A stretch of DNA of 64,000 nt, taken from Labilibaculum manganireducens. Its GTDB lineage: Bacteria; Bacteroidota; Bacteroidia; Bacteroidales; Marinifilaceae. Below the pieces are notes generated by a model. The model saw only the letters and a list, made by a program, of their open reading frames with translations, was not told where the DNA came from and made no database searches. Positions within the stretch are counted from its first letter, which is position 1. Each line of letters starts with the position of its first letter. The translations under genes were made by a program, and so were the position numbers. Shown here piece by piece: positions 33,782-53,455 of this stretch. Location: the NCBI RefSeq assembly GCF_002843385.1, contig NZ_MVDE01000012.1:62001-126000 (forward strand), in the 5' to 3' direction.

Positions 33782-33796
33782 TAACATGTATGATGA
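33782..33796. promoter_or_regulatory. Operator-like site before murK (TAACATGTATGA)
   Basis: TAACATGTATGATGA. The first 12 bases are identical to sites at 33956 and 53441. Inside lies GTATGAT, close to the GT-N3-AC core that FadR-subfamily GntR operators use (t.GTa.tAC.a). It is close to the murK start, as expected for a repressor site. Confidence 0.7.
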
Positions 33797-33955
33797 ATGT
33801 TAATTTAAAATGAATTTACAAATAAATAAATTAATATTGAATTTGTATTTTTCCATTTTCATTCCTTCTACATTGCTTAATATCCTTATTGTACGGGTGA
33901 ATTTATTTTCACGTTACAAATATATAAAAATTAAACATTTGTAAAAAGTATTATA

Positions 33956-33970
33956 TAACATGTATGACCA
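33956..33970. promoter_or_regulatory. Operator-like site before the nagB fusion (TAACATGTATGA)
   Basis: TAACATGTATGACCA, with the core GTATGAC. It lies just upstream of the -33 box of the nagB-fusion promoter. Confidence 0.7.
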
Positions 33971-33972
33971 AT

Positions 33973-34004
33973 TTTGGAAAATATGATTTTCTGTTCTATT
34001 TTTG
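33973..34004 (+). promoter_or_regulatory. Promoter of the nagB fusion operon
   Basis: TTTG at 33973-33976, a 20-base spacer and TATTTTTG at 33997-34004 fit the Bacteroidota promoter. The gene starts 33 bases downstream. Confidence 0.75.
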
Positions 34005-34037
34005 ATCCGAAAGTAATTTAAATCAGGAGATAGCAAA

Positions 34038-36020
34038 ATGGAGAATCAGATACTGCAATTTAGGGAAGAGCTTGATGAAGCCAAGTTGTATTACCAACCT
34101 TCAGATGAGTTCGACAGAACAGTGAAAACCCGGTATGAGAAAATGCCGGCAGATATTTTTTCAACTGCTGAAAAGGCAGCCAAGTGGGTTGCAGGTGAAA
34201 TTGCAAATGAAATTAAGCAAAAACAAAAGCTTGGCGAAATGTGTGTTGTAGGATTAGCTACCGGAGCAACGCCATTGGGAGTGTATTCCGAACTGATTCG
34301 TCTGCACAAAGAAGAAGGCTTGTCATTTCTGAATGTGGTTACTTTTAATTTGGATGAGTATTATCCGATGTTGAAATTGAGCGCACAAAGCTATAATCAT
34401 TACATGAATGATGTTCTGTTTAATCATATCGATATTCCTCAAAATCAAATTCATGTACCAAATGGTGAGGTAAGCAAGGTCACAATTACCGGATACTGCA
34501 ATGAGTATGAAAGACTGATTGATTCTTTTGGGGGATTGGATTTGCAAATACTTGGAATTGGTCGTACAGGGCATATTGGGTTTAATGAACCAGGTTCACA
34601 ATTGGATTCGATAACCCGTTTGATTATGCTCGATTCTTTGACCAGACGAGATGCTGCCAAAGATTTTAATGGCTTAAATAATGTGCCTAAGGCAGCTGTA
34701 ACAATGGGTGTTGGTACCATATTTAAAGCCAAAAGGGTTATTTTAATGGCTTGGGGCGAAGGAAAAGCGGCGATTGTAAAAAAAGCATTGGAAGAAAGTC
34801 AGTGTGATGCTGTTCCTGCCAGTTATTTGCAACGACATACCGATGTGAAGTTCGTTTTGGATGTGCCGGCAGCAAGTGAATTGACAAGAGTAAAAAATCC
34901 TTGGCTGGTTGGAAGTATTGAGTGGGACCGTTATTGGATTCGGAAAGCGGCTGTTTGGTTGTGTAATAAATTGCAAAAACCAATTTTGAAACTGACTAAT
35001 CGTGATTATAATGATAATGGATTGAGTGAGTTACTTGCTTTATATGGTTCGGCTTACGAGGTAAATATTAAGGTATTTAATGATTTGCAGCACACCATAA
35101 CCGGTTGGCCTGGAGGAAAGCCAAATGCTGATGATTCTCATCGTCCGGAGAGAGCAGAACCGGCAAGTAAAAGAGTTTTGGTTTTTAGTCCGCACCCTGA
35201 TGATGATGTAATTTCGATGGGAGGAACTTTGAAGCGATTGGTGGATCAAAACCATGAAGTTCATGTTGCATACCAAACTTCAGGAAATATTGCTGTTGCC
35301 GATGATGAGGCGGTGAGATATCTTTCTTTTGTAAAAAGTTTTTCGAGAACTCATGATACAAACGAGGGCAATCTTCAGTGTGTAATTGAAGACATTCAAA
35401 AATTTCTTTTGGAAAATAAAAAGCCGGGAGGAATGGATACAGCTGAAGTGCGCAATATGAAAGCCTTAATCAGGAGAGGAGAGGCAAAAGCTGCCTGTCG
35501 TTTTGTAGGTATTCGATCTAAGAACCTTCATTTTTTGGATCTTCCTTTTTATGAGACGGGTACGGTTAAGAAAAATCCGTTGGGAGAAGAGGATGTTCGT
35601 ATTTTGGTGAACCTGCTTCGAAGGATAAAACCTCATCAAATTTTTGCCGCGGGTGATTGGTCTGATCCTCATGGAACGCATCGCGTATGTTGGGAAGGAA
35701 TTTACCAGGCACTGAAAATTGTGAAGGATGAGGAATGGATGAAGGATTGTTATGTGTGGCTGTATCGTGGAGCATGGCAAGAGTGGGATCTGGATGAAAT
35801 CCAAATGGCAGTACCAGTTAGTCCTGAGGAATTGCAGCACAAACGAAATGCAATACTGCGTCATCAATCACAAATGGAGAGTGCTCCGTTTTTGGGGAAT
35901 GATTCGAGATTGTTTTGGCAAAGATCAGAAGAACGAAATAGGGCTACAGCCGATTTATTTAACAAATTGGGCTTGGCAGAATACGAGGCAATTGAAGCTT
36001 TTGTCAGGTTTATTGTTTAG
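34038..36020 (+). CDS. nagB: Glucosamine-6-phosphate deaminase fused to a PIG-L (LmbE) deacetylase domain
   Basis: The 660-residue protein joins two domains. Residues about 25-310 are NagB-like: VGLATGATPLGVY phosphate loop, FNLDEYY with the catalytic Asp106, and LGIGRTGHIGFNEPGS with His179. Residues about 375-655 are PIG-L/LmbE: FSPHPDDDVISMGG with zinc ligands His386/Asp389, and GDWSDPHGTHRVC with another zinc His. NagB makes fructose-6-P from GlcN-6-P; the second domain could remove the acetyl group from GlcNAc-6-P or a related sugar, so that one chain would do both NagA- and NagB-type steps. That role is inference. No separate nagA is in the window, and the operon follows murK/murQ divergently. 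Confidence 0.9.
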   Translation: MENQILQFREELDEAKLYYQPSDEFDRTVKTRYEKMPADIFSTAEKAAKWVAGEIANEIKQKQKLGEMCVVGLATGATPLGVYSELIRLHKEEGLSFLNVVTFNLDEYYPMLKLSAQSYNHYMNDVLFNHIDIPQNQIHVPNGEVSKVTITGYCNEYERLIDSFGGLDLQILGIGRTGHIGFNEPGSQLDSITRLIMLDSLTRRDAAKDFNGLNNVPKAAVTMGVGTIFKAKRVILMAWGEGKAAIVKKALEESQCDAVPASYLQRHTDVKFVLDVPAASELTRVKNPWLVGSIEWDRYWIRKAAVWLCNKLQKPILKLTNRDYNDNGLSELLALYGSAYEVNIKVFNDLQHTITGWPGGKPNADDSHRPERAEPASKRVLVFSPHPDDDVISMGGTLKRLVDQNHEVHVAYQTSGNIAVADDEAVRYLSFVKSFSRTHDTNEGNLQCVIEDIQKFLLENKKPGGMDTAEVRNMKALIRRGEAKAACRFVGIRSKNLHFLDLPFYETGTVKKNPLGEEDVRILVNLLRRIKPHQIFAAGDWSDPHGTHRVCWEGIYQALKIVKDEEWMKDCYVWLYRGAWQEWDLDEIQMAVPVSPEELQHKRNAILRHQSQMESAPFLGNDSRLFWQRSEERNRATADLFNKLGLAEYEAIEAFVRFIV

Positions 36021-36036
36021 ATTTATCTGAGAATTT

Positions 36037-36069
36037 CCGAATTCGACAGCTTGAATTCGGGCTTCTCTT
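36037..36069 (+). terminator. Hairpin between the nagB fusion and the amidase-like gene
   Basis: CCGAATTC and GAATTCGG form an 8-bp stem around an 8-base loop; only a weak pyrimidine tract follows, so it may attenuate rather than end transcription. Confidence 0.45.
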
Positions 36070-36096
36070 TAACTGTTTCATTTTAACGTAAAAACA

Positions 36097-39000
36097 ATGT
36101 TTTCCATGTCTGGATTTTTTCTAAATATCCGTTTTTTTAGAATGCTTTGTGTAATCTCTGTATTGTTGTTCTCAAATTTTAATTTGATAGCAGCTAAGAA
36201 ATCGGACCGATTAACTCGAAAAGCCGACAAAGCAGCACAGAGTTTTGTTGAGCAAGCTTCAAAGGAATTTGTTTACACATTTAAGTACGATAGTTTGCAA
36301 ATAGATTCAGGGCAAAAAGAAATTACATTGTATATGAATCCGGTGTTTTCGTACATCCCGTTTCGCCTGGAATCTGTACAGAGATATAAGAAAGATTTCA
36401 AGGAAGAATTGGGGCGTAGATTTCGGAATTATTCCATCCGAATGGAAAGTATGGGACAGGAAATAAGTGATTTAATTCCTAATTTCTATCGAAATGGAAG
36501 TGTTGTTTTGGATTCAAATCGTTTGAACAAGAACTCGGAAGTCGCACATCCGTTGGTGCGAAGAGTAAACACAGGGAACGATACAAAACTTGGATTGGAA
36601 AATAAACACATTGCTCTTTGGCACTCTCATGGCTGGTATTATGAAAATACACTGGACAGATGGGAGTGGCAGCGGGCAAGAGTTTACACTACGGTGGAAG
36701 ATTTGTGGACCATGGAATTTGTTGTTCCATATATTGCTCCCATGCTCGAAAAGGCTGGAGCTAATGTGTTGTTTCCCCGTGAAAGAGATGTTCAGAGAAA
36801 TGAGGTGATAGTAGATGCTGATTGGTCATCGGAAGGATCGGAATATCTTGTATCAGATTCTGTTTGGGAACTGAATTCTCAAGCGGGTTTTGCAAACAAA
36901 TATCCCTTTTATATTGAAGGAGAAAATCCGTTTGAACTGGGAAGCAGCTATCAGACTGAGGCAGGTACTGACGTATCTGCTAAAGTACAATACATTCCTT
37001 GTTTTCCTGAAAAAGGAGAATATGCAGTATCTGTTTCTTATTCTGATGACGAGGATAATGTGAATGATGCGCACTATACCGTGAATCATGCAGGAGGTAA
37101 AACTGAATTTTTGGTGAATCAGAGCATGGGTGGTAAAACCTGGATTTATTTGGGGACTTTTCTTTTTGATAAAGGGAAGAATCCCGAAAAGGGAATGGTT
37201 GAACTGACTAACGAAAGTAAGGAGCCTGGAAAGTGGATTTCGGCTGATGCAATACGATTTGGCGGAGGAATGGGAAACATTGCCCGTGGAAATCCTGAAG
37301 AATTGGATGAGCTGAAGAAACAAAGAGCAGAGCTTGGTTTTAAATTGGACTCCTGTGTTTGGCAAAAATATACGAGTAATCGGCCAAGATATCAGGAGGC
37401 AGCACGTTACTATCTTCAGTATGCAGGCATGCCCGATTCGTTGGTGTACAGCATCAATAAAGATTACAAAGCAGATTACAGCAATCGCGGAAAAGATGCA
37501 GCTAAGTTTCAGAAAAGAGAAATTGGCAAAACCGACTACAAGGATGATTATATGAGTCGTGGAGAGTGGGTGGACTATTTACTAGGAGCACCTGCAGGAC
37601 CAACTAAAAATGTTGACGCAAAAGGTTTGGGTATTCCTATTGATATGGCCCTGGCTTTTCATACCGATGCCGGTTTTACACCAAATGATTCCATTATTGG
37701 AAGTTTGGCTATTTATTCGACCACCCGGGATGAGGATTATTTTCCAAACGGACAATCGAAATGGGCAAGCCGCGATTTAACGGATATTGTTCAAACGCAG
37801 GTAGTGGAAGATATTCGAAAAAAGTATGAACCAAAATGGACGCGCAGAGGGATGTGGAACAAGCAATACTCAGAAGCGTACCGTCCAAAAGTTCCTACTA
37901 TGTTGTCTGAATTGTTATCGCACCATAATTTTGCAGATATGTATCAGGGGATGGATCCTAAATTTAAATTCGATATCAGCAGAGCTTATTACAAAGGCAT
38001 TTTAAAGTTTTTGTCATCGCAGGATGGACGGGATTATGTGGTGCAGCCTTTGCCGGTTGATCATTTTCAAATCAGGGAAACTGAAAACGGAATTGTTCTT
38101 TCATGGAAACCAGTAATAGATCAATTGGAGCCTACGGCAGTTTCTGAATCATACAAGGTTTACACAAGAATTGAAGATGGTGGGTTTGATAACGGGATAG
38201 TTGTCCCCAATTCAGAATATAGAATTACGAATTGCCAACCTGGTGTGATTTATAGTTTTAAGGTGACAGCACTAAACAAAGGCGGTGAAAGTTTTGATTC
38301 GGAAATTTTAGCCTGTTGCAAATCAGAAAATGGTAAAAAGCCTGTTTTAATTGTAAATGGATTTGATCGTGTTTCGGCTCCTCAGGGATTTGATGATGGG
38401 AAGTTCGCCGGTTTTATAAGTTCGGAAGATGAGGGTGTCGCATACAAAAGAAATATTGCCTGTGTGGGTGATCAGTACGATTTCGATCGAAAATCGAAAT
38501 GGTTGGACGATGATGCTTCTGGACATGGAAGCTCATATGCCGATCAGGAAGAACGAATAATTCCGGGTAATAGTTTCGATTATCCTTTTGTGCACGGACA
38601 AGCGATTCGGGATAATGGCTTTGGATTTGTATCGATGAGTGATGAGGCCTTTGAAGAATTGAATTGGGAGGCGAAGGATTATTCTGTGTTGGATTTGATT
38701 TTTGGAGAGGAAAAAACCACAAAGAGAATCTACGGAAAAGAAAATAAAGATTTTACAATTTACACGCCCGAAATGAGAGAGGCGATTCGAAAATACATAA
38801 GCTGCGAAAATGCAAATTTGATATTGACGGGAGCTTATGTGGGAACTGATTTGGAGTTGTGCGGCGATAGTCTGGCAAAATCTTTTGCTGAGAATGATTT
38901 GCATTATCAGTTCAGAACCAATCATGCGAGCAAATTGGGGAAAGTATCGCATACAAACGAAGTGAGAAATAATTTCACGGGAGAATATCAATTTGAAACG

Positions 39001-39225
39001 GAATATTCAGCCGATATATATAAGGTAGAAGCACCCGATGCAATTGAACCTAAAGGGGATGGCGCAAAAGTTCTTCTTCGTTATTCAGGAAATAATAAAA
39101 GTGCCGGTGTAGTGTATGATGGAAACTATCAATCTGTAATTTTAGGATTTCCATTTGAAACACTGGAAACGAAAGAGCATCGAAATAAATTGATGAAACA
39201 GATGCTTCAATTTTTTAATCAGTAA
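36097..39225 (+). CDS. Large exported amidase_3-like protein with golvesin-type domain
   Basis: The 1042-residue protein has a signal peptide (first 35 residues), a helical/beta N-terminal region, and a discontinuous domain that matches N-acetylmuramoyl-L-alanine amidase (amidase_3): HSHGWYYE with His176, WTMEF with Glu207, FHTDAGF with His522, and a last Glu605 in PTMLSELLSHHN, the His-Glu-His-Glu zinc set of that family. Between the second and third ligands a beta domain is inserted (about 285-395) with YTVNHAGGKTEFLVNQ and ADAIRFGGGMG, the golvesin/xanthan-lyase-type binding fold. A fibronectin type III segment (about 650-745) and a C-terminal flavodoxin/amidotransferase-like region follow. 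Homologues are often labelled xanthan lyase. Cleaving peptides from glycan strands is the favoured role. Confidence 0.72.
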   Translation: MFSMSGFFLNIRFFRMLCVISVLLFSNFNLIAAKKSDRLTRKADKAAQSFVEQASKEFVYTFKYDSLQIDSGQKEITLYMNPVFSYIPFRLESVQRYKKDFKEELGRRFRNYSIRMESMGQEISDLIPNFYRNGSVVLDSNRLNKNSEVAHPLVRRVNTGNDTKLGLENKHIALWHSHGWYYENTLDRWEWQRARVYTTVEDLWTMEFVVPYIAPMLEKAGANVLFPRERDVQRNEVIVDADWSSEGSEYLVSDSVWELNSQAGFANKYPFYIEGENPFELGSSYQTEAGTDVSAKVQYIPCFPEKGEYAVSVSYSDDEDNVNDAHYTVNHAGGKTEFLVNQSMGGKTWIYLGTFLFDKGKNPEKGMVELTNESKEPGKWISADAIRFGGGMGNIARGNPEELDELKKQRAELGFKLDSCVWQKYTSNRPRYQEAARYYLQYAGMPDSLVYSINKDYKADYSNRGKDAAKFQKREIGKTDYKDDYMSRGEWVDYLLGAPAGPTKNVDAKGLGIPIDMALAFHTDAGFTPNDSIIGSLAIYSTTRDEDYFPNGQSKWASRDLTDIVQTQVVEDIRKKYEPKWTRRGMWNKQYSEAYRPKVPTMLSELLSHHNFADMYQGMDPKFKFDISRAYYKGILKFLSSQDGRDYVVQPLPVDHFQIRETENGIVLSWKPVIDQLEPTAVSESYKVYTRIEDGGFDNGIVVPNSEYRITNCQPGVIYSFKVTALNKGGESFDSEILACCKSENGKKPVLIVNGFDRVSAPQGFDDGKFAGFISSEDEGVAYKRNIACVGDQYDFDRKSKWLDDDASGHGSSYADQEERIIPGNSFDYPFVHGQAIRDNGFGFVSMSDEAFEELNWEAKDYSVLDLIFGEEKTTKRIYGKENKDFTIYTPEMREAIRKYISCENANLILTGAYVGTDLELCGDSLAKSFAENDLHYQFRTNHASKLGKVSHTNEVRNNFTGEYQFETEYSADIYKVEAPDAIEPKGDGAKVLLRYSGNNKSAGVVYDGNYQSVILGFPFETLETKEHRNKLMKQMLQFFNQ

Positions 39226-39252
39226 GAAAATAATAAAAACACAATAATTACT

Positions 39253-40713
39253 ATGAACGAAAAGGTGACATGTTTTATTCCTTTTGGAACAAAGGAAGAG
39301 ACCGAAATAACAATCAATGAGCTGATAAAATCAGATTTAGTAGCTGCGATTTATGTTGTTGGTGGCGATGCTCAACTGGAGGCTGAAGGTGTTAATGTAT
39401 TAACATCGGAAAGCTTATCGCACGGGAAAACGATTCATGCAATTGCTGAAAAATCAGATTCTGAATATGTTTTTATCTACACAAAAACAAGTGCCTTAAC
39501 TTTGGGACAATTGGCTTTGGATCGGTTTATGAAGGTAGCCAAGGATACAAATAGTGGCTTGGTGTATTCAAATTATCGTGCAATTAAAGAGGGAGTGGTT
39601 GAAAATTGCCCGGTAATTGATTATCAGGAAGGAAGTTTGAGAGATGATTTTAATTTTGGATCGGTGCTTTTTTATGATGCGAAAGTGTTAAAAGAGGCAG
39701 TAAAGGATGTAGATACTACCTTTCGTCATGCAGGATTGTATGAATTGCGCTTGGCAGTAGCGGCGCGTTCTGAATTTATGAGAATTCCGGAAGTGTTGTA
39801 CACCGAAGAAGAAATGGATACAAGAAAATCGGGAGAGAAAATTTTCGATTACGTTGATCCTAAGAATCGTGCCGTGCAAATTGAAATGGAGATTGCCTGC
39901 ACTGAGCATTTGAAAAGAATTGGAGCTTTTTTAGCACCAAAATTTGATCATGTTGCTTTTGATGAAGGTGATTTTAAGATAGAAGCTTCTGTTGTGATTC
40001 CGGTTCGGGATCGTGTAAAAACCATCGAGGATGCGATTAAATCGGTATTGGCTCAGAAAGCAAATGTTGATTTCAATTTAATTATTGTGGATAACTACTC
40101 TACGGATGGAACGACTGAAATTATTCAGAAATATGCTGCCTTGGACAAACGTATCATTCACATTATTCCGGAACGAAAAGATTTGGGTATTGGTGGTTGT
40201 TGGAATGAAGCTGTAGCACATGAGTCTTGTGGTAAATTCGCAATTCAGTTGGATAGTGATGATTTATATGCCGATGAAACCACTGTGCAGAAAGTTGTAG
40301 ATGCATTTTACAGTCAAAATTGTGCTATGGTTGTTGGAACTTATCAGATGGTGAACTTTGCTTTGGAAGAAATTCCTCCTGGAATAATCGATCACAAAGA
40401 GTGGACACCTGAAAATGGACGGAACAATGCGCTTCGCATTAACGGATTGGGTGCGCCTCGTGCATTCTATACTCCTGTATTGCGCAAGAATCCGATTCCA
40501 AATGTAAATTATGGTGAGGATTATGCTTTGGGATTGGCAATTTCGCGTAATTACCAGATTGGTAGAATTTACGATTCAATTTATTTGTGTCGTCGCTGGG
40601 ATGATAATTCTGATGCTTCTTTGGATATCGAAAAAATGAATGCTCACAATACTTACAAAGATCGCATTCGTACCATCGAATTGAAAGCTAGAAAACTGTT
40701 GGGCCAAAAATAG
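39253..40713 (+). CDS. Family 2 glycosyltransferase with two GT-A-like halves
   Basis: The C-terminal half (about 245-470) is a typical GT2: ASVVIPVRDRVKTIEDAIKSVLAQ, LIIVDNYSTDGTTEII, then the DxD-type FAIQLDSDDLY. The N-terminal half (1-230) has weaker similarity to the same fold, with CFIPFGTKEETEITINELIKS and a possible YSNYRAI region, and may be a degenerate or second transferase domain. No signal or membrane helix is seen, so it acts in the cytosol. It lies 27 bases after the amidase-like gene and is probably the end of the nagB operon. Sugar donor and acceptor are unknown; a biosynthetic enzyme in a catabolic unit is notable. Confidence 0.82.
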   Translation: MNEKVTCFIPFGTKEETEITINELIKSDLVAAIYVVGGDAQLEAEGVNVLTSESLSHGKTIHAIAEKSDSEYVFIYTKTSALTLGQLALDRFMKVAKDTNSGLVYSNYRAIKEGVVENCPVIDYQEGSLRDDFNFGSVLFYDAKVLKEAVKDVDTTFRHAGLYELRLAVAARSEFMRIPEVLYTEEEMDTRKSGEKIFDYVDPKNRAVQIEMEIACTEHLKRIGAFLAPKFDHVAFDEGDFKIEASVVIPVRDRVKTIEDAIKSVLAQKANVDFNLIIVDNYSTDGTTEIIQKYAALDKRIIHIIPERKDLGIGGCWNEAVAHESCGKFAIQLDSDDLYADETTVQKVVDAFYSQNCAMVVGTYQMVNFALEEIPPGIIDHKEWTPENGRNNALRINGLGAPRAFYTPVLRKNPIPNVNYGEDYALGLAISRNYQIGRIYDSIYLCRRWDDNSDASLDIEKMNAHNTYKDRIRTIELKARKLLGQK

Positions 40714-40738
40714 ATGTAGATTAAAATACTTGATTTAG

Positions 40739-42595
40739 TCTCTGTGTAACTCAGTGCTCCGTGGTAAAAAAAAAAGTTTAACCACAGAGAGCACAGAGTT
40801 GCACAGAGAAAAAAAAGGGAATACAGGGGTGATTCGTAAAATGTTAATTTGGTGTAATTTAATCGTGCCAATAATTTGTTAAACCTTTCTAAATATCTGC
40901 GGTTAAGACTCTGTGTAAACAGTGATCTCCGTGGTAAAAAAAAAGTTTAACCACAGAGAGCACAGAGTTACACAGAGAAAAAAAGGGAATGCAGGTGTGA
41001 TTTGTAAAATGTTAATTCGGTGTAATTTAATCGTGCCAATAGTTTGTAAATACCTGCGGTTAAGACTCTGTGTAAACAGTGTTCTCCGTGGTAAAAAAAA
41101 GTTTAACCACAGAGAGCACAGAGTTACACAGAGAAAAAAAGGGAATGCAGGTGTGATTTGTAAAATGTTAATTCGGTGTAATTTAATCGTGCCAATAGTT
41201 TGTAAATACCTGCGGTTAAGACTCTGTGTAAACAGTGTTCTCCGTGGTAAAAAAAAGTTTAACCACAGAGAGCACAGAGTTACACAGAGAAAAAAAGGGA
41301 ATGCAGGTGTGATTTGTAAAATGTTAATTCGGTGTAATTTAATCGTGCCAATAGTTTGTAAATACCTGCGGTTAAGACTCTGTGTAAACAGTGTTCTCCG
41401 TGGTAAAAAAAAAGTTTAACTACAGGGAGTACTGAGAATCACAGAGAAAATAAATAGGAATGCAGGTGTGATTTGTAAAATGTTAATTCGGTGTAATTTA
41501 ATCGTGCCAATAGTTTGTTAAACCTTTCTAAATATCTGCGGTTAAGACTCTGTGTAAACAGTGATCTCCGTGGTAAAAAAAAGTTTAACCACAGAGAGCA
41601 CAGAGTTGCACAGAGAAAAAAAAGGGAATAGAGGGGTGATTCGTAAAATGTTAATTTGGTGTAATTTGATCGTGCCAATAGTTTGTTAAACCTTTGTAAA
41701 TACCTGCGGTTAAGACTCTGTGAATCTCAGTAATCTCCGTGGTAAAAAAAAGTTTAACCACAGGGAGTACTGAGAATCACAGAGAAAAAAAGGGAATGCA
41801 GGTATGATTTGTAAAATGTTAATTCGGTGTAATTTAATCGTGCCAATAGTTTGTAAATCCCTGCGATTGCTACTCTGTGAATCTCAGTAATCTCAGGGGT
41901 AAAAAAAGTTTAACCACAGAGAGCACAGAGGTTCACAGAGAAAAAAAAGGAATGCAGGTGTGATTTGTAAAATGTTAATTCGGTGTAATTTAATCGTGCC
42001 AATAGTTTGTAAATCCCTGCGATTGCTACTCTGTGAATCTCAGTAATCTCAGGGGTAAAAAAAGTTTAACCACAGAGAGCACAGAGGTTCACAGAGAAAA
42101 AAAAGGAATGCAGGTGTGATTTGTAAAATGTTAATTTGGTGTAATTTAATCGTGCCAGCAGTTTGTAAATACCTGCGGTTAAGACTCTGTGTAACTCAGT
42201 GATCTCCGTGGTAAAAAAAAGTTTAATCACAGAGAGCACAGAGGTTCACAGAGAAAAAAAGGGAATGCAGGTATGATTTGTAAAATGTTAATTCGGTGTA
42301 ATTTAATCGTGCCAATAGTTTGTAAATACCTGCGATTGCTACTCTGTGTAAACAGTGATCTCCGTGGTAAAAAAAAGTTTAACCACAGAGAGCACAGAGG
42401 TTCACAGAGAAAAAAAGGGAATGCAGGTGTGATTTGTAAAATGTTAATTTGGTATAATTTGATCGTGCCAATAGTTTGTTAAACCTTTGTAAATACCTGC
42501 GGTTAAGACTCTGTGTAAACAGTGATCTCCGTGGTAAAAAAAAAGTTTAACCACAGAGAGCACAGAGGTTCACAGAGAAAAAAAGGAATACAGGT
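40739..42595. repeat. Tandem array of about 12 palindrome-bearing units (156-170 bp)
   Basis: The unit starts near CTCTGTGTAA, with starts at about 40739, 40908, 41065, 41221, 41377, 41547, 41715, 41872, 42028, 42184, 42341 and 42508 (spacings 156-170). Each unit has a dyad, CTCTGTG...TCTCCGTGGT then A-run, GTTT and AACCACAGAGAGCACAGAG...CACAGAG, which can fold into a hairpin of nearly 30 bp. A linker of about 85 bases follows, with GGTGTAATTTAATCGTGCCA. Some units differ by a 13-base insertion (TTAAACCTTTsTAAATA type). The last unit lacks the linker. Units of 156 bases (52 codons) create a false 165-residue frame at 40922-41419. No gene was found inside. The array separates the GT2 gene from the DUF1460 gene. 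Confidence 0.95.
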
Positions 42596-42632
42596 GTTAT
42601 TTTAGTGAGAAACCTGATAAAACATAAGAAGT

Positions 42633-43540: not shown

Positions 43541-43586
43541 TAAATAGTGTTATAAAGAATATACTTTGTCAAGATATTGGAAAACA

Positions 43587-44594: not shown

Positions 44595-44644
44595 GTGAGA
44601 TTCCCAATAATTAGGAACTATTGGGAATCCGACTTTAAGTCGGA
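44584..44644. repeat. Cluster of three hairpins at the end of the DUF4922 gene
   Basis: TCTCACTT-T-AAGTGAGA (44584-44600, includes the DUF4922 stop codon), ATTCCCAATA...TATTGGGAAT (44600-44628) and TCCGACTT-T-AAGTCGGA (44628-44644) follow one another. The first and third share ACTTTAAGT. They look like a compound intergenic repeat. Confidence 0.85.
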
Positions 44645-44661
44645 ATACCAAATTTACATAA

Positions 44662-44905: not shown

Positions 44906-44954
44906 ATTGTATAGAGTCTTACATCAAATTAAACTCTAAGTAATTAAAAGAAAC

Positions 44955-45869: not shown

Positions 45870-45980
45870 ATTGATAAGAACTAAGATGGGAAAGATGAGA
45901 TAATAAAAGTTGAGTTCCGGATAGTTTGGAGCTGTAAATAATCTATTGTCTAGGATCTAATATCTAAAATCTATTAAAAA

Positions 45981-47306
45981 ATGAACGAACCACAACTACG
46001 TGTAGGCATCATGTATGAGCCTAAAATTTCATTCACATTAAATGGAATTTACATACTTCAGCAAAATGGAAAAGAATATACAGGAAAGCAAGATGCCTGC
46101 TATGTCGATGATAATATAGCCTTTGATGGCCTGGTAGATGAAGAATTGGTTTTCTATCCAAAATATTACGAAGAAGCATCTTTCGATCTTTTTGATGTGA
46201 CAATTGGAATAAAATTCCATTGGGAGCGAAAGGAAGATCAGCGCTTCAAAGGTGCTTTGCACTTTATTTGCGAAGATGAAAAATTAACTGCCATCAATGT
46301 TCTTTCTTTAGAGGATTATTTGGTAAGTGTTATTTCATCTGAAATGAGTGCAACAAGCAGCATGGAACTGTTGAAAGCTCATGCAATTATTTCCCGTTCA
46401 TGGTTAATCGCGCAGGTAATAAAAGGGGCTGAATTGCAAAAATCAGAAACCAATTATCAGAGTATTGTTGAAACCGATGAGCAATATATTCGTTGGTACG
46501 ATCGCGAAGATCATGTGAATTTTGATGTTTGTGCCGATGATCATTGTCAGCGTTATCAAGGCATTACCAAACAATCGACCAAACTGGTAGTCGATGCAAT
46601 AGATGCAACTCGTGGACTGGTGCTTACCAGTGAGGGTGAAGTTTGCGATGCCCGTTTCTCGAAATGTTGTGGTGGCGTTGCCGAGACATTTGAAAATGTA
46701 TGGGAACCTAAAAATCATAAATACCTGCAGGCGGTTATCGATAATCCGAAAGTTCCTGCTGGATACGATATGAATTTGAAAAATGAAACAGCAGCAGTGA
46801 AATGGATTAGTACTTCGCCTGAAGCATTTTGCAATACCACCGATAAAGAAATTTTGTCGCAGGTTTTGAATGATTACGATCAGGAAACCATGGATTTTTA
46901 TCGTTGGAAGGTAGAATACGAACAAGATGTAATTTCAGAATTAATAGCACGTAAAACGGGTAAAGATTTTGGACAGATTCTGGATTTAATTCCTGTTGAA
47001 AGAGGAGAGTCTGGGCGCTTAATCAAATTGAAAATTGTAGGTTCGAAACGAAGTTTGGTGATTGGAAAAGAATTGGAAATCCGTAAAGTGCTTTCCGAAT
47101 CGCATTTGTACAGTTCCGAATTTGTTGTTGATAGAGTAGGTGAAGAGAACGGAGTGCCAGCTAAATTTATTTTGATTGGTGCCGGCTGGGGACATGGGGT
47201 TGGTCTTTGCCAGATTGGAGCCGCAGTAATGGGTGCCAAGGGATACAAATACGATGAAATTTTGCTGCATTATTTCCGTGGAGCGGAATTGGAAAAAAGG
47301 TATTAA
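45981..47306 (+). CDS. SpoIID/LytB domain protein
   Basis: SpoIID-type proteins are lytic transglycosylases that cut glycan strands stripped of stem peptides. The 441-residue product has the family core: SVISSEMSATSSMELLKAHAIISRSWLI with the catalytic-type Glu, DDHCQRYQGI, ARFSKCCGGVAETFENVW, and the closing GWGHGVGLCQIGAAVMGAKGYKYDEIL. The N-terminus (MNEPQLRVGIMYEPKISFTL) shows no signal peptide or membrane helix, so export is not evident. It follows the GNAT gene by 111 bases and precedes an AmpG-like permease, consistent with muropeptide handling. Confidence 0.88.
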   Translation: MNEPQLRVGIMYEPKISFTLNGIYILQQNGKEYTGKQDACYVDDNIAFDGLVDEELVFYPKYYEEASFDLFDVTIGIKFHWERKEDQRFKGALHFICEDEKLTAINVLSLEDYLVSVISSEMSATSSMELLKAHAIISRSWLIAQVIKGAELQKSETNYQSIVETDEQYIRWYDREDHVNFDVCADDHCQRYQGITKQSTKLVVDAIDATRGLVLTSEGEVCDARFSKCCGGVAETFENVWEPKNHKYLQAVIDNPKVPAGYDMNLKNETAAVKWISTSPEAFCNTTDKEILSQVLNDYDQETMDFYRWKVEYEQDVISELIARKTGKDFGQILDLIPVERGESGRLIKLKIVGSKRSLVIGKELEIRKVLSESHLYSSEFVVDRVGEENGVPAKFILIGAGWGHGVGLCQIGAAVMGAKGYKYDEILLHYFRGAELEKRY

Positions 47307-47536
47307 TTATAGAGATGAGATGTTAGAAATGAGGCATGAGAAAAATGGAGTATGCTTTTTTCTAAAGCTGTAAATAATCTCAAATCTCACGACTCAAATT
47401 TATAATCTTAATCAAAAAAATATAAGTATTGAAATAAGATACGTGAATCAGGATTTTTGAAGCTGTAAATAGTCTCAAATCTCTTATCTCAAATCTCACT
47501 TCTCATATCTCAGTTCTCAAATCTAAACAAAAAAGA
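47307..47536. repeat. AT-rich gap with CTCAAATCT-type short repeats
   Basis: Many imperfect copies of CTCATATCTC/CTCAAATCT occur just before the AmpG-like gene, with the reverse type (GAGATGAGATGTTAGAAATGAGG) near 47312. Similar text (TCTAATATCTAAAATCT) precedes the SpoIID gene at about 45950. AGCTGTAAATA recurs at 45930, 47364 and 47462. No gene or clear promoter is visible. Confidence 0.55.
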
Positions 47537-48844
47537 ATGTCAAAAACAAAAACTCGCTCACCATGGGCATGGATTCCATCTCTTTATTTTGCAGAAGGCA
47601 TACCTTACGTTGTGGTGATGACTGTTGCCGTGATCATGTACAAAAAGCTGGGTATTTCAAATACCGATATTGCCTTGTATACCTCTTGGTTGTATTTGCC
47701 TTGGGTGATTAAGCCTTTTTGGAGTCCGATTGTAGATATCGTAAAAAGCAAGCGTTGGTGGATTGTTAGTATGCAGTTGTTGATTGGTGCTGGTTTGGCG
47801 GGTGTTGCTTTTACGGTTCCTACCACATTCTTTTTTCAGTCAACATTGGCCTTTTTCTGGCTGTTGGCTTTTAGTTCGGCAACTCACGATATTGCTGCTG
47901 ATGGTTTTTACATGTATGGAATGGACTCCAATAAGCAGGCCTACTTTATTGGAATACGAAGCACCTTTTATCGCTTAGCCATGATTACCGGTCAAGGACT
48001 TTTAATTATTCTGGCAGGATATTTTGAAACCACAAAACTGTTTGGGAATACCGAAAATAATATTCCATTGGCATGGTCGCTAACCTTTTATATTTTAGCT
48101 GCCGGATTTTTATTGTTTTGCGTTTATCACAAGTTTGCACTTCCGTATCCAAAGGAGGATGAAGACCGGGAGGTAAAAAGCTTTTCCAGTGTATTCGAGG
48201 ATTTTGCTGAGACCTTTGTTTCTTTTTTCATGAAAAAGGATATTTTGAAAATCGTAGGGTTGCTCTTGGTGTATCGTTTGGGCGAATCTCAATTGGTGAA
48301 AATGGCATCTCCTTTTCTTCTCGATCCGAAAGAAGTTGGCGGATTAGGTTTATCTACGGGCGATGTTGGATTGGTTTATGGAACCATAGGAATCATTTTC
48401 TTAACTCTGGGAGGTTTGCTTGGAGGATATCTGGCTTCAAAAAATGGATTGAAATATTGGTTTTGGCCAATGGTAATTGCCATTAACCTGCCAAACCTTG
48501 TGTATGTTTACCTTTCTTACGCATTGCCCGAATCTTTCTTTTTGATTTGTGCCTCGGTGGCCGTAGAGCAATTTGGATACGGTTTTGGCTTTACAGCATA
48601 TATGCTTTATCAGATATATGTATCCGAAGGAAAACACAAAACGGCTCACTTTGCATTTTGTACAGGCTTAATGGCTTTGGGCATGATGTTGCCAGGAATG
48701 ATTTCCGGTTGGCTGCAGGAGTTGTTGGGCTATCAGCACTTCTTTATTTGGGTGATGATTTGTACCATCCCAAGTTTTATAATGATAAAATTGATTGATA
48801 TAGATCCGAAATTTGGTATTAAAACGGGAAAAGATGAAAAATAG
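47537..48844 (+). CDS. AmpG-like major facilitator permease
   Basis: A 435-residue protein with about twelve transmembrane segments. The opening WAWIPSLYFAEGIPYVVVMTVAVIMYKKLGISNTDIALYTSWLYLPWVIKPFWSPIVDI resembles the first helices of the AmpG/peptide-acetyl-CoA transporter branch, including the charged residues after TM2 (PIVDI). AmpG carries GlcNAc-anhydroMurNAc and its peptides across the inner membrane. The neighbours (SpoIID, GDSL, NagX-like, DUF1460) support that, but members of the branch may move free sugars too. It overlaps the next gene by 11 bases. Confidence 0.82.
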   Translation: MSKTKTRSPWAWIPSLYFAEGIPYVVVMTVAVIMYKKLGISNTDIALYTSWLYLPWVIKPFWSPIVDIVKSKRWWIVSMQLLIGAGLAGVAFTVPTTFFFQSTLAFFWLLAFSSATHDIAADGFYMYGMDSNKQAYFIGIRSTFYRLAMITGQGLLIILAGYFETTKLFGNTENNIPLAWSLTFYILAAGFLLFCVYHKFALPYPKEDEDREVKSFSSVFEDFAETFVSFFMKKDILKIVGLLLVYRLGESQLVKMASPFLLDPKEVGGLGLSTGDVGLVYGTIGIIFLTLGGLLGGYLASKNGLKYWFWPMVIAINLPNLVYVYLSYALPESFFLICASVAVEQFGYGFGFTAYMLYQIYVSEGKHKTAHFAFCTGLMALGMMLPGMISGWLQELLGYQHFFIWVMICTIPSFIMIKLIDIDPKFGIKTGKDEK

Positions 48845-49364
48845 AATTGCTTTTTTGGGGGATAGCTTAACCGAGGGAGGATGCTGGGAAGAATACTTTC
48901 CTGCTTATGAGATTTCTAATTTTGGAATATCCGGAGAGCGGTCTGATGAAATCCTTTTTCGATTGGATGAGGTTCTGTTTTGGGAACCTAAAAAGATTTT
49001 TTTGATGATGGGAATTAACGATTTGGGTGAAGGTTTAAGTTCTGAAAAGATTCTTACGAATTATAAAAAAATATTTTCAATAATGAAGGAGCATAAGGAC
49101 ATTGAATTGATCGTTCAAAGTCTTTTACCTACTAATGAGACTCTTTTTAAGAGTGATAATTTTGATGGGTTGAAAATTCTGGAAGTCAATTTTCACTTGA
49201 GAGATTTGTGTGAGAAAGAGAAGATTACTTTCGTGGATTTGTATACCGCTTTTTCAACCTATAAATCCCAAATGATTAAAGATTATACCAATGATGGTTT
49301 GCATTTGAATGAAGCCGGTTATAGGGTATGGCGGAATTGTTTGCAATCTCAAAATCTCATCTAA
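48834..49364 (+). CDS. GDSL/SGNH-family hydrolase
   Basis: The 176-residue protein has block I FLGDSLTEGG (nucleophile Ser), block II NFGISGERSDEIL (Gly), block III LMMGINDLGEG (Asn) and block V DGLHLNEAGY (Asp and His). It is a small esterase of the SGNH fold. ATG 48834, overlapping the permease stop, is preferred to the earlier GTG/ATG frame start at 48813. No signal peptide, so it would act in the cytosol. Removing O-acetyl groups from imported muropeptides is one possible role; it is an inference from the operon. Confidence 0.85.
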   Translation: MKNRIAFLGDSLTEGGCWEEYFPAYEISNFGISGERSDEILFRLDEVLFWEPKKIFLMMGINDLGEGLSSEKILTNYKKIFSIMKEHKDIELIVQSLLPTNETLFKSDNFDGLKILEVNFHLRDLCEKEKITFVDLYTAFSTYKSQMIKDYTNDGLHLNEAGYRVWRNCLQSQNLI

Positions 49365-49374
49365 AATCTAGATA

Positions 49375-50484
49375 ATGAAAAAAACAGAACGTTTAATGGC
49401 TTTGGATGCCTTTCGGGGATTAACCATTGCTGCCATGATTACGGTGAATACTCCAGGAAGTTGGGGACATGTTTATGCTCCATTGCTTCATTCAAAGTGG
49501 AATGGCTGTACGCCAACCGATTTGGTGTTTCCTTTCTTTCTATTTGCTGTTGGTGTTGCCATGTGGTTTGCTTTCGGGAAATTCGATCATAAATTAAGTC
49601 CCGAAGCAGGCAGGAAGATTCTGAAGCGGACTGTAATCATTTTTGGCATAGGTTTGTTATTGAATGCCTTTCCATTTATTCAGGTTGAGTTGGAGAATTT
49701 TCGGATAATGGGAGTTTTGCAGCGAATCGCCTTGGCTTATGGAATAGGAAGTTTGCTTTGTTTGTGGCTGAGTAAAGCTCGTTTGGTAATTGTCTCATTG
49801 GCTATTCTACTGGCATATTGGGGATTGGTTTTTTTCCTTGGTGGCAATCATCCATATAGTTTAGAGGGAAATCCAACAATGGCTTTCGATAGCAAGATTT
49901 TGGGAGCGGATCATCTGTACAAAGGTTTTGGTATTGCTTTCGATCCCGAAGGATTGTTTAGCACTCTTCCTGCAATTGCCACAGTGATTCTTGGATATCT
50001 TGCCGGATATTTAATTGAATCCACCGAGCGAAAGAAGTTGGTTGCAAAGCTATTGATGTTTGGTTCTTTAGGCGTGATTGCTGGTTTAATTTGGAGTTTA
50101 GGATTTCCTATTAATAAACCAATATGGTCTAGTTCTTATGTGGTTTATACCGCAGGTTTAGCACTTTTGGTTTTAGCTGTAATGATTTACCTGATCGATA
50201 TTTTGGAATACAAGAAATGGGCTCATCCTTTTCTTGTTTTCGGAATGAATCCATTATTTATTTATGTTCTTTCAGGAGTTTGGGTAAGAGTGATTATTTA
50301 TTTGGTTCATTTTTCAGATCAGGCAGGAAATTCAACAACCGGATATGTCTGGTTGTGTAAAAATGTATTTGCATCCTGGGCAGGAGATATGAATGGATCT
50401 TTGTTTTTTGCGCTGGCACATATCGTTGTCTATTGGCTCATCGTGCTGTTTCTCTATAAACGGAAGATATTTATTAAAATATAA
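49375..50484 (+). CDS. NagX-like membrane acyltransferase (HGSNAT/DUF5009 type)
   Basis: The 369-residue protein has about ten membrane segments. The N-terminus RLMALDAFRGLTIAAMITVNTPG and HSKWNGCTPTDLVFPFFLFAVGVAM are the marks of the heparan-alpha-glucosaminide N-acetyltransferase-like family (NagX), which moves acetyl groups across the membrane onto glucosamine-type sugars. The family His in the second block is HSKWNG. It is the last gene of the AmpG-GDSL unit and ends in a strong terminator. In other bacteria nagX lies with chitin or GlcNAc genes, which supports an amino-sugar role. Confidence 0.85.
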   Translation: MKKTERLMALDAFRGLTIAAMITVNTPGSWGHVYAPLLHSKWNGCTPTDLVFPFFLFAVGVAMWFAFGKFDHKLSPEAGRKILKRTVIIFGIGLLLNAFPFIQVELENFRIMGVLQRIALAYGIGSLLCLWLSKARLVIVSLAILLAYWGLVFFLGGNHPYSLEGNPTMAFDSKILGADHLYKGFGIAFDPEGLFSTLPAIATVILGYLAGYLIESTERKKLVAKLLMFGSLGVIAGLIWSLGFPINKPIWSSSYVVYTAGLALLVLAVMIYLIDILEYKKWAHPFLVFGMNPLFIYVLSGVWVRVIIYLVHFSDQAGNSTTGYVWLCKNVFASWAGDMNGSLFFALAHIVVYWLIVLFLYKRKIFIKI

Positions 50485-50486
50485 AA

Positions 50487-50519
50487 GAAAAGCTTCGGAT
50501 TTAATCCGAAGCTTTTTTT
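50487..50519. terminator. Bidirectional terminator
   Basis: AAAAGCTTCGGATT and AATCCGAAGCTTTT form a perfect stem, with A and T runs outside. It ends the NagX-like transcript and overlaps the stop codon of the convergent exporter gene. Confidence 0.92.
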
Positions 50520-51025
50520 GAGTCAAATAATTTATTTAGAAATTTGTTTGGTTTAGTTTCTTTTATCGATTTGTTTCGACTGAGTAACATGGGGGCCGAA
50601 ACGCCCAGCGAAAGTGCCGATAATACAAAAAAGGCTTTCAATCCATTGTCAACAGTTTCTTGTAACAACTGCAGAAAAACAGCATGATCATTTTCTCCTG
50701 TTAAATGGATAATTCCCAGCATCATTCGGTAAGTAAATGCACCCGGAACCATTGGGATAACTGCAGGAATAGCAAACACAAAGGGTGGCGAATGTCTTAA
50801 GTGAGCAGCACGGATGCTTAAAAAACCAATTAGTAAAGCGCCCATAAGCGAGCTGAGAATGATATTCATTCCCAGCTTTAGGCAGATCAGTTTTACTGTT
50901 CCGCCCAAAGCACCCATGATGAATATTACCCATAATGTACGGGGAGGAACATTAAAGAGTATTGCAAAACCTGTAGCTGCAAAGCCCAGCCAAATCCATG
51001 TCTCAAAAAATACAATCCACTCCAT
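50501..51025 (-). CDS. Threonine/serine exporter family protein, small subunit (ThrE/DUF3815 part)
   Basis: The 174-residue protein has about five membrane segments and matches the C-terminal ThrE domain (DUF3815): WLGFAATGFAILFNVPPRTL, and AIPAVIPMVPGAFTYRMMLG near the end of TM4. In Corynebacterium both halves are one ThrE chain that exports threonine and serine; here they are split. The stop codon lies in the shared terminator. Confidence 0.88.
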   Translation of the reverse strand: MEWIVFFETWIWLGFAATGFAILFNVPPRTLWVIFIMGALGGTVKLICLKLGMNIILSSLMGALLIGFLSIRAAHLRHSPPFVFAIPAVIPMVPGAFTYRMMLGIIHLTGENDHAVFLQLLQETVDNGLKAFFVLSALSLGVSAPMLLSRNKSIKETKPNKFLNKLFDSKKASD

Positions 51026-51028
51026 ATT

Positions 51029-51799
51029 CTAAATGTTATAAATAAGAATCGCTCCAAGTAAACCCAAAGCAATCGAAAAAGCGATAATTAATCCATTAAG
51101 TCCTCTTACCACTCCGTTTATAATATTTCCATCCAAAAGATCCAGCAGGGAATTAATTAATGGAATTCCAGGAATCAGATATAAAACAGAGGTTGCAAAA
51201 GCATATTCCGGATTGCTGCTAATGTGCAGATTAACTGCAGCTCCCGAAATCATAGCTGATACAAAAGCGGCCAGGAAAATACATAAATAAGGATTAAATT
51301 CTCTTTTTGTGACTTCCTGTCTTACAAATAAGCCAACAAAAGTTGCCACAAAAGCAATTAGCATTTCGATGGCTTCACCACCAAAAATACGGCAGAATGA
51401 GGCACCTGCCAAAGCTACCATCAGCAATGTTACGATCCTAGGATAATGAGGTACAGACTTTAATCGGTCTATTTCATGACGAACCATTTCCAAATCCCAT
51501 TTTTCCTCTATAATGTGCCAGCTCATTCTGCTGAGTCCGCTAACAATTTTGAAATTGACACGATGAGCCGATGTTTGCATCAGCCGGCTAAAGAACAGAT
51601 CAGACTCTTCGTTGTTTATGGTTAACATTAATGCGCGATGGGTAATTAATAATTCTGCATGGTATCCAAAGGCTGAAGCAATACGCATTACGGTAACCCG
51701 AATTCTAAATGTATTTGCTCCGGTTTCCATAAGTAAGGCTCCTACTTCAAGCAGAATTTTACACAGCTCGTTAATCTTCTCTTTTTCGGATAAAACCAT
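51029..51799 (-). CDS. Threonine/serine exporter family protein, large subunit (ThrE/DUF1212 part)
   Basis: The 256-residue protein starts with a soluble region (LCKILLEVGALLMETGANTFRIRVTVMRIASAFG, the DUF1212 signature) and continues with about five membrane segments, including LYLIPGIPLINSLLDLLDG. It is upstream of the small subunit with 3 bases between them, so both are made together. Together they equal one ThrE transporter. Its link to the surrounding cell-wall genes, if any, would be export of excess amino acids, which is speculation. The 283-base gap upstream holds no gene that I can see. Confidence 0.9.
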   Translation of the reverse strand: MVLSEKEKINELCKILLEVGALLMETGANTFRIRVTVMRIASAFGYHAELLITHRALMLTINNEESDLFFSRLMQTSAHRVNFKIVSGLSRMSWHIIEEKWDLEMVRHEIDRLKSVPHYPRIVTLLMVALAGASFCRIFGGEAIEMLIAFVATFVGLFVRQEVTKREFNPYLCIFLAAFVSAMISGAAVNLHISSNPEYAFATSVLYLIPGIPLINSLLDLLDGNIINGVVRGLNGLIIAFSIALGLLGAILIYNI

Positions 51800-52082
51800 A
51801 TTTTTTTATTGTTTTGAAATGATATTAACCTGATTGTTGAATACTTCAAATGAGTTTTTTGTAAACCGATCTATCCGTTACTCTGTGGTTGTATGTTTAG
51901 CAACAAAAACTTGTGTCTTAATTTGTTGTGGTAGTACAAAGTTGTTTAGCTGAAAGGTTTTGTTTCAAAGTAGATTTTATTTTCTCTAAAATAAAGAATA
52001 TATCAGGCAAAAGTAATCATTTTTACAATTTCACATTCTGATACAATGATAAATTATGATTCTAATTTTCATTTTATTGCGA

Positions 52083-53357
52083 TCAATTATAGAGCCAGTA
52101 TTTTTTTGATTTTTCCAAAAATGATTCTCTGGGCGCAAACCAAAGTTCTTTGATGTCACTTACCAGAAAGTTTTCGGTAAATCTCATTCTTATTTCCTTA
52201 CTTCCGCATACTTTGTCGAACATACTTAAGCGTGATGCTTCGCACATTTCAAAAGGATTTTTATTGGGATACAATTTGTGACATTCCTGCATCACATAAA
52301 ATTGAATGAGGGAGATTGGTGCTTTCTGAGTGTCTGTAAAATGCAATTGAACCCCATGAAGCATAAGGCCTTTTCCGACTGAATAGTATGGTTTATAGTG
52401 TACTGGGCGAAAAAGAACACCTGAGATTTGCAGATTATTTAAACTTTCAGCTAAATCGTCAGCATTGATCCATTCGGCAGCAAATAATTCAAATGGCTGA
52501 GTATAACCGACACCAATCGAAATGGTATACAATTCTCCAAGTATGCCCGAAGCTGCATAGTAAACTGCACTTGCTGAGTTCGGGATATGAGGAGATGTTG
52601 GAACCCAAGGCAAGCCGGTTTCCTGAAAAGTCATGTTTCGTTTCCATCCTTCCATTTTCACAACATGTAGTTTACATTTTTTACCATCCTTCAGCAAGCC
52701 TTCTTCATTCAAATAACTAGCCAGTTCGCCGCAAGTTAGTCCGTACACATAGGGTATGGGGAACTGACTCACAAAAGATATTTGTTTAGGTTCAACCAAG
52801 CAACCTTCTATCTTATTTCCTCCAAAAGGATTTGGGCGATCCAATACGATAAATTCAACATTGTTTTCGGCACAAGCCTCCATTAATAATCCCATACTGC
52901 TGATGTATGTATAGGAACGGACGCCAATATCCTGAATGTCGTATACAATAGCATCCAAACCTTTTAGCATTTTAGCATTTGGTTTTTGTTGTCTGCCATA
53001 CAGCGAATAGACTTGAATACCTGTTTTTTTGTCGGTGTAGGTTGCTACTTTCTCACCGGCAGCATGATCTCCCCGTATTCCATGTTCAGGGCTGAATAGA
53101 ACTTTAACATCTACATCATTGCAAGCATGAAGCAGATCGATAGTCGATTCTAAATTTTGATTTACCCCAGTAGGGTTGGTGATGATTCCAATCTTTTTTC
53201 CGGTAAGAAAAGAGTAATTGGTTTTTTGTAGTACATCTATGCCTGTTTTCACTTTTTGGGCAAGGATAGATGTCTGGAAAAATAATATTTGAATGCAGAT
53301 TAAAAGAAGGGAATATCTTAATCCTCTGTAAATACGCAATGTGTTGTTGTTAATCAT
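52083..53357 (-). CDS. namZ: Exo-beta-N-acetylmuramidase NamZ (DUF1343)
   Basis: NamZ (GH171) removes terminal MurNAc from the non-reducing end of peptidoglycan fragments, supplying free MurNAc. The 424-residue protein has a signal peptide (ending near SILAQ) and DUF1343 landmarks: TGIDVLQ, GKKIGIITNPTGVN, LFSPEHGIRGDHAAGEKV, YSLYGRQQKP, IVYDIQDIGVRSYTYISSMG, VLDRPNPFGG and WVPTSPHIPN. The enzyme assignment comes from characterised Bacillus and Tannerella DUF1343 proteins. It reads divergently from the 53.5-63.5 kb operon, and the gap carries a TAACATGTATGA operator-like site. MurNAc released here would suit the MurK-MurQ route at 32-34 kb. Confidence 0.92.
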   Translation of the reverse strand: MINNNTLRIYRGLRYSLLLICIQILFFQTSILAQKVKTGIDVLQKTNYSFLTGKKIGIITNPTGVNQNLESTIDLLHACNDVDVKVLFSPEHGIRGDHAAGEKVATYTDKKTGIQVYSLYGRQQKPNAKMLKGLDAIVYDIQDIGVRSYTYISSMGLLMEACAENNVEFIVLDRPNPFGGNKIEGCLVEPKQISFVSQFPIPYVYGLTCGELASYLNEEGLLKDGKKCKLHVVKMEGWKRNMTFQETGLPWVPTSPHIPNSASAVYYAASGILGELYTISIGVGYTQPFELFAAEWINADDLAESLNNLQISGVLFRPVHYKPYYSVGKGLMLHGVQLHFTDTQKAPISLIQFYVMQECHKLYPNKNPFEMCEASRLSMFDKVCGSKEIRMRFTENFLVSDIKELWFAPRESFLEKSKKYWLYN

Positions 53358-53412
53358 GATGACTGTTTTTTAATTTTTACAATTTAGATACTTGTTTTCT
53401 TTAATTTTTCAT

Positions 53413-53440
53413 TGCAAAACTAATAAATTTTATATTTTTG
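53413..53440 (+). promoter_or_regulatory. Promoter of the 53.5-63.5 kb operon
   Basis: TATTTTTG at 53433-53440 is an exact TAnnTTTG -7 box. A TTG near 53412-53414 may serve as -33 element. The operator-like word begins directly after it, over the expected transcription start. Confidence 0.65.
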
Positions 53441-53455
53441 TAACATGTATGACAA
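53441..53455. promoter_or_regulatory. Operator-like site between namZ and the transglutaminase-like gene (TAACATGTATGA)
   Basis: TAACATGTATGACAA, within TTGTAACATGTATGACAA. The core GTATGAC fits the FadR-subfamily pattern GT-N3-AC. Placed on the start point of the rightward promoter, it could block transcription when bound. Confidence 0.72.

Follow-up and report, generated by a model that had tools for sequence, protein, structure and literature searches.

A predicted operator for a GntR/FCD regulator at five promoters of a cell-wall salvage locus in Labilibaculum manganireducens

We analysed a 64,000-nucleotide stretch of the Labilibaculum manganireducens genome (contig NZ_MVDE01000012.1, positions 62,001 to 126,000; hereafter the window) that carries genes for the salvage of muropeptides and N-acetylmuramic acid (MurNAc) together with a gene for a GntR-type regulator. 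The original prediction had joined these genes into one regulon through a shared 12-bp word, TAACATGTATGA. Our comparative analysis supports that proposal, extends it by one site, before nlpC, and sharpens the putative operator. The GntR/FCD protein probably binds five operators of approximately 20-24 bp in a span of 25 kb, and would thereby coordinate muropeptide and MurNAc salvage. The proposed targets comprise cutting enzymes (namZ, transglutaminase-GHL10 and nlpC), probable outer-membrane import by the SusC/SusD-like genes after nlpC, cytoplasmic conversion by murK-murQ and nagB, and gntR itself. The motif, its sites, their conservation and two associations, GntR with murQ and the site with GntR, were computed; direct binding, repression and the identity of the ligand are inferred.

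An exact search of the window located TAACATGTATGA at 33782-33793, 33956-33967 and 53441-53452, all on the plus strand and all at the positions first reported. Each copy precedes cell-wall catabolism genes as had been described, with murQ, the nagB fusion, namZ and the transglutaminase gene recognised by profile matches. The expectation per 64 kb is 0.011 copies under a first-order Markov model and 0.024 from base composition, which bears out the statement that a given 12-mer should not appear here by chance. A further 10/11 match reported before gntR is real, but its position, given as 31273, is actually 31275-31285 on the minus strand; taken as a 12-mer the match covers 31275-31286 of that strand with two mismatches. 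Matches with up to two mismatches numbered 12 in the window against 8.1 expected, which is not an enrichment, and matches with up to one mismatch in the genome numbered 31 (the three exact copies included) against 36 for a reversed-pattern control, again without excess. Both counts tell against the word, and loose matching was dropped as uninformative at these distances. The case for TAACATGTATGA rests on exact matches, position and conservation. The whole 5.32-Mb genome holds three exact copies, every one of them at the window locus. As a chance repeat the word would be expected at 0.95 to 2.0 exact copies per genome anyway, but the confinement of all three copies to one locus, their retention in sister genomes and the rediscovery of the motif from distant loci make this explanation extremely improbable.

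The 12-mer is part of a longer predicted operator, about TTTGTAASATGTATKACAAA, in which a GT-N3-AC core of the FadR type is joined to an upstream half-site (TTGTAA). GntR loci were taken as the best 80 of 268 candidates in named genomes, which returned Labilibaculum, Marinifilum and many Marinilabiliales/Bacteroidales; murQ was present in 57 of the 80 and a murK homologue in 52. Expectation maximisation was run on 85 deduplicated upstream regions (28 murK, 57 gntR) of 68 distant loci, which include near relatives and in which GntR shares no more than 72% identity with that of the window. The resulting motif of width 16 had a log-likelihood of 283 vs 74-79 in three shuffled sets. Sites were contributed by 27 of the 28 murK regions and 29 of the 57 gntR regions, some of the latter being weak or within the end of murQ. 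The core occupies matrix positions 10-11 (G10 T11) and 15-16 (A15 C16), and a second GT stands approximately 9-10 nt upstream of the core centre. This arrangement agrees with the FadR-subfamily form outlined in PMC4494728, in which GT and AC lie 3 nt apart and extra half-sites 7-12 nt from the centre. The GT-N3-AC core, already recognised in the original prediction, persists across relatives at the nagB site, which reads GTATGAC, GTATTAC or GTAATAC with GT and AC kept. An inverted repeat, TTGTAA-N6-TTACAA, would fit the same sequences equally, and the two readings appear indistinguishable. The same half-sites occur in a different arrangement, TGTATGATAGCATACA, upstream of the Prolixibacteraceae-type gntR in L166, L170, L172, L176, L178 and L180, loci that have no murQ.

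Applied to the window, the matrix built from distant loci gave as its top five hits the promoters of gntR, murK, nagB, namZ/transglutaminase and nlpC (Table 1). The highest score in ten Markov windows was 16.1, and 37 of 40 column-permuted matrices produced no window hit of at least 16.5, the remaining three producing one or two. The 68 distant loci together span 1.157 Mb and contain 68 sites that score at least 17. Sixty-six of these precede homologues of window genes, four of the 66 standing before SusC-like genes, which are not necessarily cell-wall genes; one of the other two is within a reading frame and one elsewhere. A single Markov control of these loci yielded zero sites at this threshold, and with ten permuted matrices the hits numbered 0-5, compared with 70 (unmerged) for the real matrix. 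Promoter kinds outside the training set account for only 19 sites (NagX, transglutaminase, SusC, NamZ, GHL10 and MurQ homologues).

The profile used to scan the genome included the window's own sites, so that only the absence of stronger rivals is informative there. The five window sites took the top four ranks and the sixth, and no stronger site was found elsewhere among the 150 of 2491 first-look candidates that were scored, a sampling that might overlook an additional weak site. The profile had six hits outside the locus, and all but the one on C5 were inspected: those on C10, C18, C14 and C8 lie within reading frames, and that on C4 coincides with, or shortly precedes, the start of a small gene resembling a helix-turn-helix protein. 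The degenerate core TMANATGTATKAY is commoner in the genome than its reversed control (13 vs 0). Its ten matches outside the locus scored at most 6.8 with the matrix and were rejected.

GntR is carried by 15 of the 59 genomes searched, the window's own included. Thirteen of the 15 (again with its own) belong to the same family and have GntR proteins 84-100% identical, and the other two have 62-63% identity. These 13 family genomes hold 35 exact copies of TAACATGTATGA, 32 of them at the orthologous locus, against 8 for the reversed control, and the remaining 46 genomes hold 12 against 21. The scan of the genome and its relatives that had been proposed shows that sister genomes carry the word in the same promoters as L. 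manganireducens. In promoter alignments (13 genomes for nagB and gntR; 12 for namZ, G014 having been removed by a start-codon filter) the sites and some promoter boxes are invariant, and much of the sequence around them has diverged. A site scoring at least 14 was present at namZ/transglutaminase in 12 of 12 sister genomes, at murK, nagB and nlpC in 11 each and at gntR in 7, the gntR site being the least conserved of the five.

Additional genes lie between GHL10 and nlpC in several sisters. In G002 these encode a sodium:solute symporter, an anhydro-MurNAc kinase and a beta-lactamase-domain protein by Pfam. By eye, similar genes are present in G014, G016 and G026, with a site scoring 19-23 between the kinase-like and beta-lactamase-like genes, and a site scoring 18-20 stands upstream of the genes in this interval in G002, G017 and G028. 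The window's own genome gave no match to AnmK (PF03702). Two other elements were seen. In G012 (L200 469-492, Marinifilum group) a near-perfect operator-like palindrome scoring 20.8 precedes the gene for a C25-type peptidase by approximately 270 bp. In the window, far upstream of gntR, TTTTGGTATGAT at 31059-31076 and the conserved TTT stretch after it are unchanged in the 13 aligned genomes; this element scores below 9 with the operator matrix.

We then considered which protein binds the operator. In the sample of the order, murQ was present in 9 of 9 GntR genomes vs 60 of 247 (p 1.8e-6), and among the relatives in 15 of 15 vs 19 of 59 (p 1e-10), kinship being ignored in these and the following test. 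Outside the family, no site of at least 15 was found near murQ in any of 44 murQ-bearing genomes without GntR (best 14.3; 42 of 51 in the order sample, G053 and G049 included, plus G045 and G030), and many of these keep murK, AmpG, NamZ, SpoIID or a golvesin-domain gene beside murQ. A promoter site was present in five of eight genomes outside the family that carry both murQ and GntR (G041, 24.9; G151, 24.9; G204, 24.4 and 24.1; G245, 25.7; G262, 20.9 and 20.6), an association of site with GntR that gave a Fisher p of 2e-5. Among the eight, G204 and G103 probably supplied the training loci L177 and L153, and L126 probably comes from the contig of G262 that carries gntR; the murK contig of G262 is outside the training set, and G041, G151 and G245 showed no contig of matching length in the training list. 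The distribution of the site, 0 of 44 against 5 of 8, points to GntR as very probably the binding protein. Another regulator could in principle recognise the motif, gntR being merely a neighbour and target, since FadR-type sites resemble other AT-rich palindromes. This is improbable given the lack of sites in the GntR-less genomes, the fit of the core to the FadR-subfamily form (PMC4494728), and G262, where the murK site and gntR are on separate contigs and close linkage is therefore no explanation. Control of the word-bearing promoters by the GntR protein, as originally proposed, thus gains from conservation in 13 genomes, rediscovery at distant loci and the tracking of the site with GntR presence, and autoregulation is probable from the comparative evidence. 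Similar clusters (AmpG, NamZ, MurK, MurQ and a golvesin-domain gene) without GntR and without the site were observed at L294, L306, L309 and L314.

Its domains place the protein in the FadR/FCD subfamily, with an N-terminal GntR winged helix (PF00392, E 1e-21, 76.8 bits vs a cut-off of 27) and a C-terminal FCD domain (PF07729, E 2.8e-19, 70.2 bits vs 24.3). MurR of E. coli, of the RpiR family, controls MurNAc catabolism including murQ and has MurNAc-6-phosphate as its ligand. It has an unrelated fold of RpiR helix-turn-helix and SIS domains, and identity with MurR was rejected because Pfam shows only GntR and FCD in the window protein. NagR/YvoA of B. subtilis, which governs an amino-sugar regulon, shares the GntR winged helix but belongs to the HutC subfamily, whose C-terminal domain is UTRA; its structures match only profile residues 17-91, and this identity was likewise rejected on the C-terminal domain. 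The window protein shares with FadR, LldR, GlcC and PdhR, as presented in PMC4494728, the winged helix with an all-helical FCD domain and, in its predicted operator, the GT/AC core and the extra half-site, whereas its gene set, MurNAc and muropeptide salvage, is unlike those examples. The survey table of that paper includes no FadR-subfamily protein from Bacteroidetes. The best NCBIfam match is the NanR model, at 137.3 bits and below the cut-off of 260. NanR of E. coli, a repressor for sialic acid described in PMC8012715, is likewise tied to amino-sugar catabolism, but its operator consists of GGTATA direct repeats, which differ from the window motif, and we rejected this assignment on both grounds. 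GppX of Tannerella forsythia controls the murTKQ/ampG muropeptide operon in another member of the Bacteroidetes, but the account in PMC5388701 presents it as a hybrid two-component activator with an AraC-like domain and no GntR. Our searches of the open-access literature listed no paper that seemed to report control of MurNAc catabolism by a GntR/FadR protein in Bacteroidetes.

The position of the sites relative to predicted promoters bears on the mode of regulation. Predicted -7 boxes are matches to the Bacteroidetes consensus TAnnTTTG (PMC7366714) rather than mapped starts. Relative to the nearest box, the site centre stands at +10 for 10 of the 13 distant gntR promoters that have one, for 2 of 2 transglutaminase promoters and for the window transglutaminase gene. 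For murK, 27 of the 33 distant promoters that have a box place the centre at -38 to -43. In the window it falls at approximately +18 for nlpC, -28 for namZ, approximately -20 for gntR, -39 for nagB and -41 for murK. The word might be a promoter element, part of a -7 or -33 box, rather than an operator, as the overlap of site and -7 box at the transglutaminase gene and several distant gntR promoters would allow. Its distance of approximately 40 bp from the box at murK and nagB, and its absence near murQ in 44 of 44 GntR-less genomes, make this very unlikely.

A site over the start region, as in the +10 class, predicts repression by occlusion, and repression is likely where the site covers that region. 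The -40 class would lie immediately 5' of the -33 region, a position known for activators as well as repressors, and activation may take place at murK and nagB. E. coli FadR is itself a dual regulator. On that model, the GntR protein would repress gntR, the transglutaminase gene and nlpC and activate murK-murQ and nagB from their shared upstream site, a possibility that we hold only tentatively. The two geometry classes, +10 and about -40, speak for it, but namZ (-28), NagX (-21) and the window gntR (approximately -20) fall between the classes, the boxes are consensus matches only, and a second, weaker murK site next to the start codon is in keeping with repression. The -40 operator is common to the divergent murK and nagB promoters, and elsewhere a golvesin-domain gene replaces nagB. 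It is conceivable, though doubtful, that start-region operators repress the scavenging enzymes and gntR while the -40 operator activates or poises the cytoplasmic MurNAc pathway. A broad part of the Bacteroidales might then possess an undescribed two-way FadR-type regulator of peptidoglycan salvage, which we also regard as speculative. Of the two modes, a repressor released by its ligand seems to us moderately more likely than dual regulation. Looping in helical phase between the two murK sites was dropped, their spacing being 172-175 bp in the 12 Marinifilaceae loci listed and 83-157 bp in 9 other loci, in which the second site is weak.

Several observations weigh against the proposed circuit. 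A site of at least 17 was missing from 20 of the 68 distant GntR loci in the stretch examined, and the gntR site scored below 14 in 5 of 12 sister genomes. Of the genomes with GntR and murQ outside the family, G103 and G153 had no site in the stretches read, and G044 was rejected as site-bearing as its only hit (16.7) is inside a SpoIID-like reading frame. Many of the compared genomes are related, a kinship that the p-values leave out of account. Finally, a murK/nagB site some 40 bp upstream of the -7 box does not by itself indicate repression.

In the repressor circuit that we favour, a GntR dimer would occupy the GT-N3-AC core, touch the upstream TTGTAA half-site as well, and hinder RNA polymerase. 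A pathway intermediate, most likely MurNAc-6-phosphate, would release the protein; this candidate is suggested by the pathway, in which the products of murK and anmK converge on it and murQ uses it up. With its predicted operator, gene set and phylogenetic range, a FadR-type regulator would constitute a testable salvage circuit for marine and sediment Bacteroidales. The site can also reveal further salvage genes, such as nlpC in the window and the genes around anmK in sisters. Unrelated families would then act on one pathway, RpiR in E. coli, a two-component system in Tannerella and GntR/FCD in the window. GppX is the one Bacteroidetes regulator of muropeptide genes that we met in the literature (PMC5388701).

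Table 1. Genes, predicted operators and predicted -7 boxes of the salvage locus (window coordinates)
Feature	Position	Strand	Basis or remark
gntR, GntR winged helix and FCD regulator, predicted binder	31304-32023	+	Pfam
murQ, MurNAc-6-phosphate etherase	32097-32927	-	TIGR00274, 313 bits vs cut-off 302
murK-like sugar kinase, first gene before murQ	32938-33768	-	weak NagK_SO3507 NCBIfam match, below cut-off
nagB/PIG-L fusion, glucosamine-6-phosphate deaminase-like	34038-36020	+	PRK02122, 1048 bits
namZ, exo-beta-N-acetylmuramidase family	52083-53357	-	Pfam NamZ_N, NamZ_C
Transglutaminase-like lipoprotein gene	53474-54907	+	Pfam Transglut_core
GHL10 gene, after transglutaminase gene	54909-56384		Pfam GHL10
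nlpC, NlpC/P60 gene	56524-57699	+	Pfam
Epimerase-like gene, close behind nlpC	57713-58852		Pfam
SusC-like gene	58893-61916		named by eye from translation
SusD-like gene	61927-63477		named by eye from translation
Predicted operator, gntR (autoregulation)	31262-31285	-	matrix 16.9; aligned in 13 genomes
Predicted operator adjoining murK start, contains 33782 word	33776-33799	+	matrix 17.0
Predicted operator common to divergent murK/nagB promoters, contains 33956 word	33950-33973	+	matrix 17.4
Predicted operator between divergent namZ/transglutaminase, contains 53441 word	53435-53458	+	matrix 23.9
Predicted operator before nlpC, absent from original prediction	56492-56515	+	matrix 19.8
Predicted -7 box TATATTTG, murK-murQ	33917-33924	-	shared operator 41 bp upstream
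Predicted -7 box TATTTTTG, nagB	33997-34004	+	unchanged in 13/13 aligned genomes; shared operator 39 bp upstream
Predicted -7 box TAGTTTTG, namZ	53415-53422	-	
Predicted -7 box TATTTTTG, transglutaminase gene	53433-53440	+	overlaps operator
Predicted -7 box TAAATTTG, nlpC	56482-56489	+	

Judged by their predicted products, the genes of Table 1 form a cell-wall salvage cluster, which also encodes AmiA-like, SpoIID-like, AmpG-like and NagX-like proteins. The murK-like kinase gave no Pfam hit, and its name comes from context and from the original prediction. From gene spacing, nlpC and the epimerase-like, SusC-like and SusD-like genes are probably one unit. The SusC-like gene is 91% identical in G004 and only 28-51% identical in nine other sisters with a match there, a divergence unlike that of the neighbouring genes that suggests swapped transporters. 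Between the GT2 and AmiA-like genes, positions 40740-42602 hold a tandem array with a 156-bp unit, approximately 10.8 copies and 89% matches, from which a spurious repeated reading frame arises at 40922-41419.

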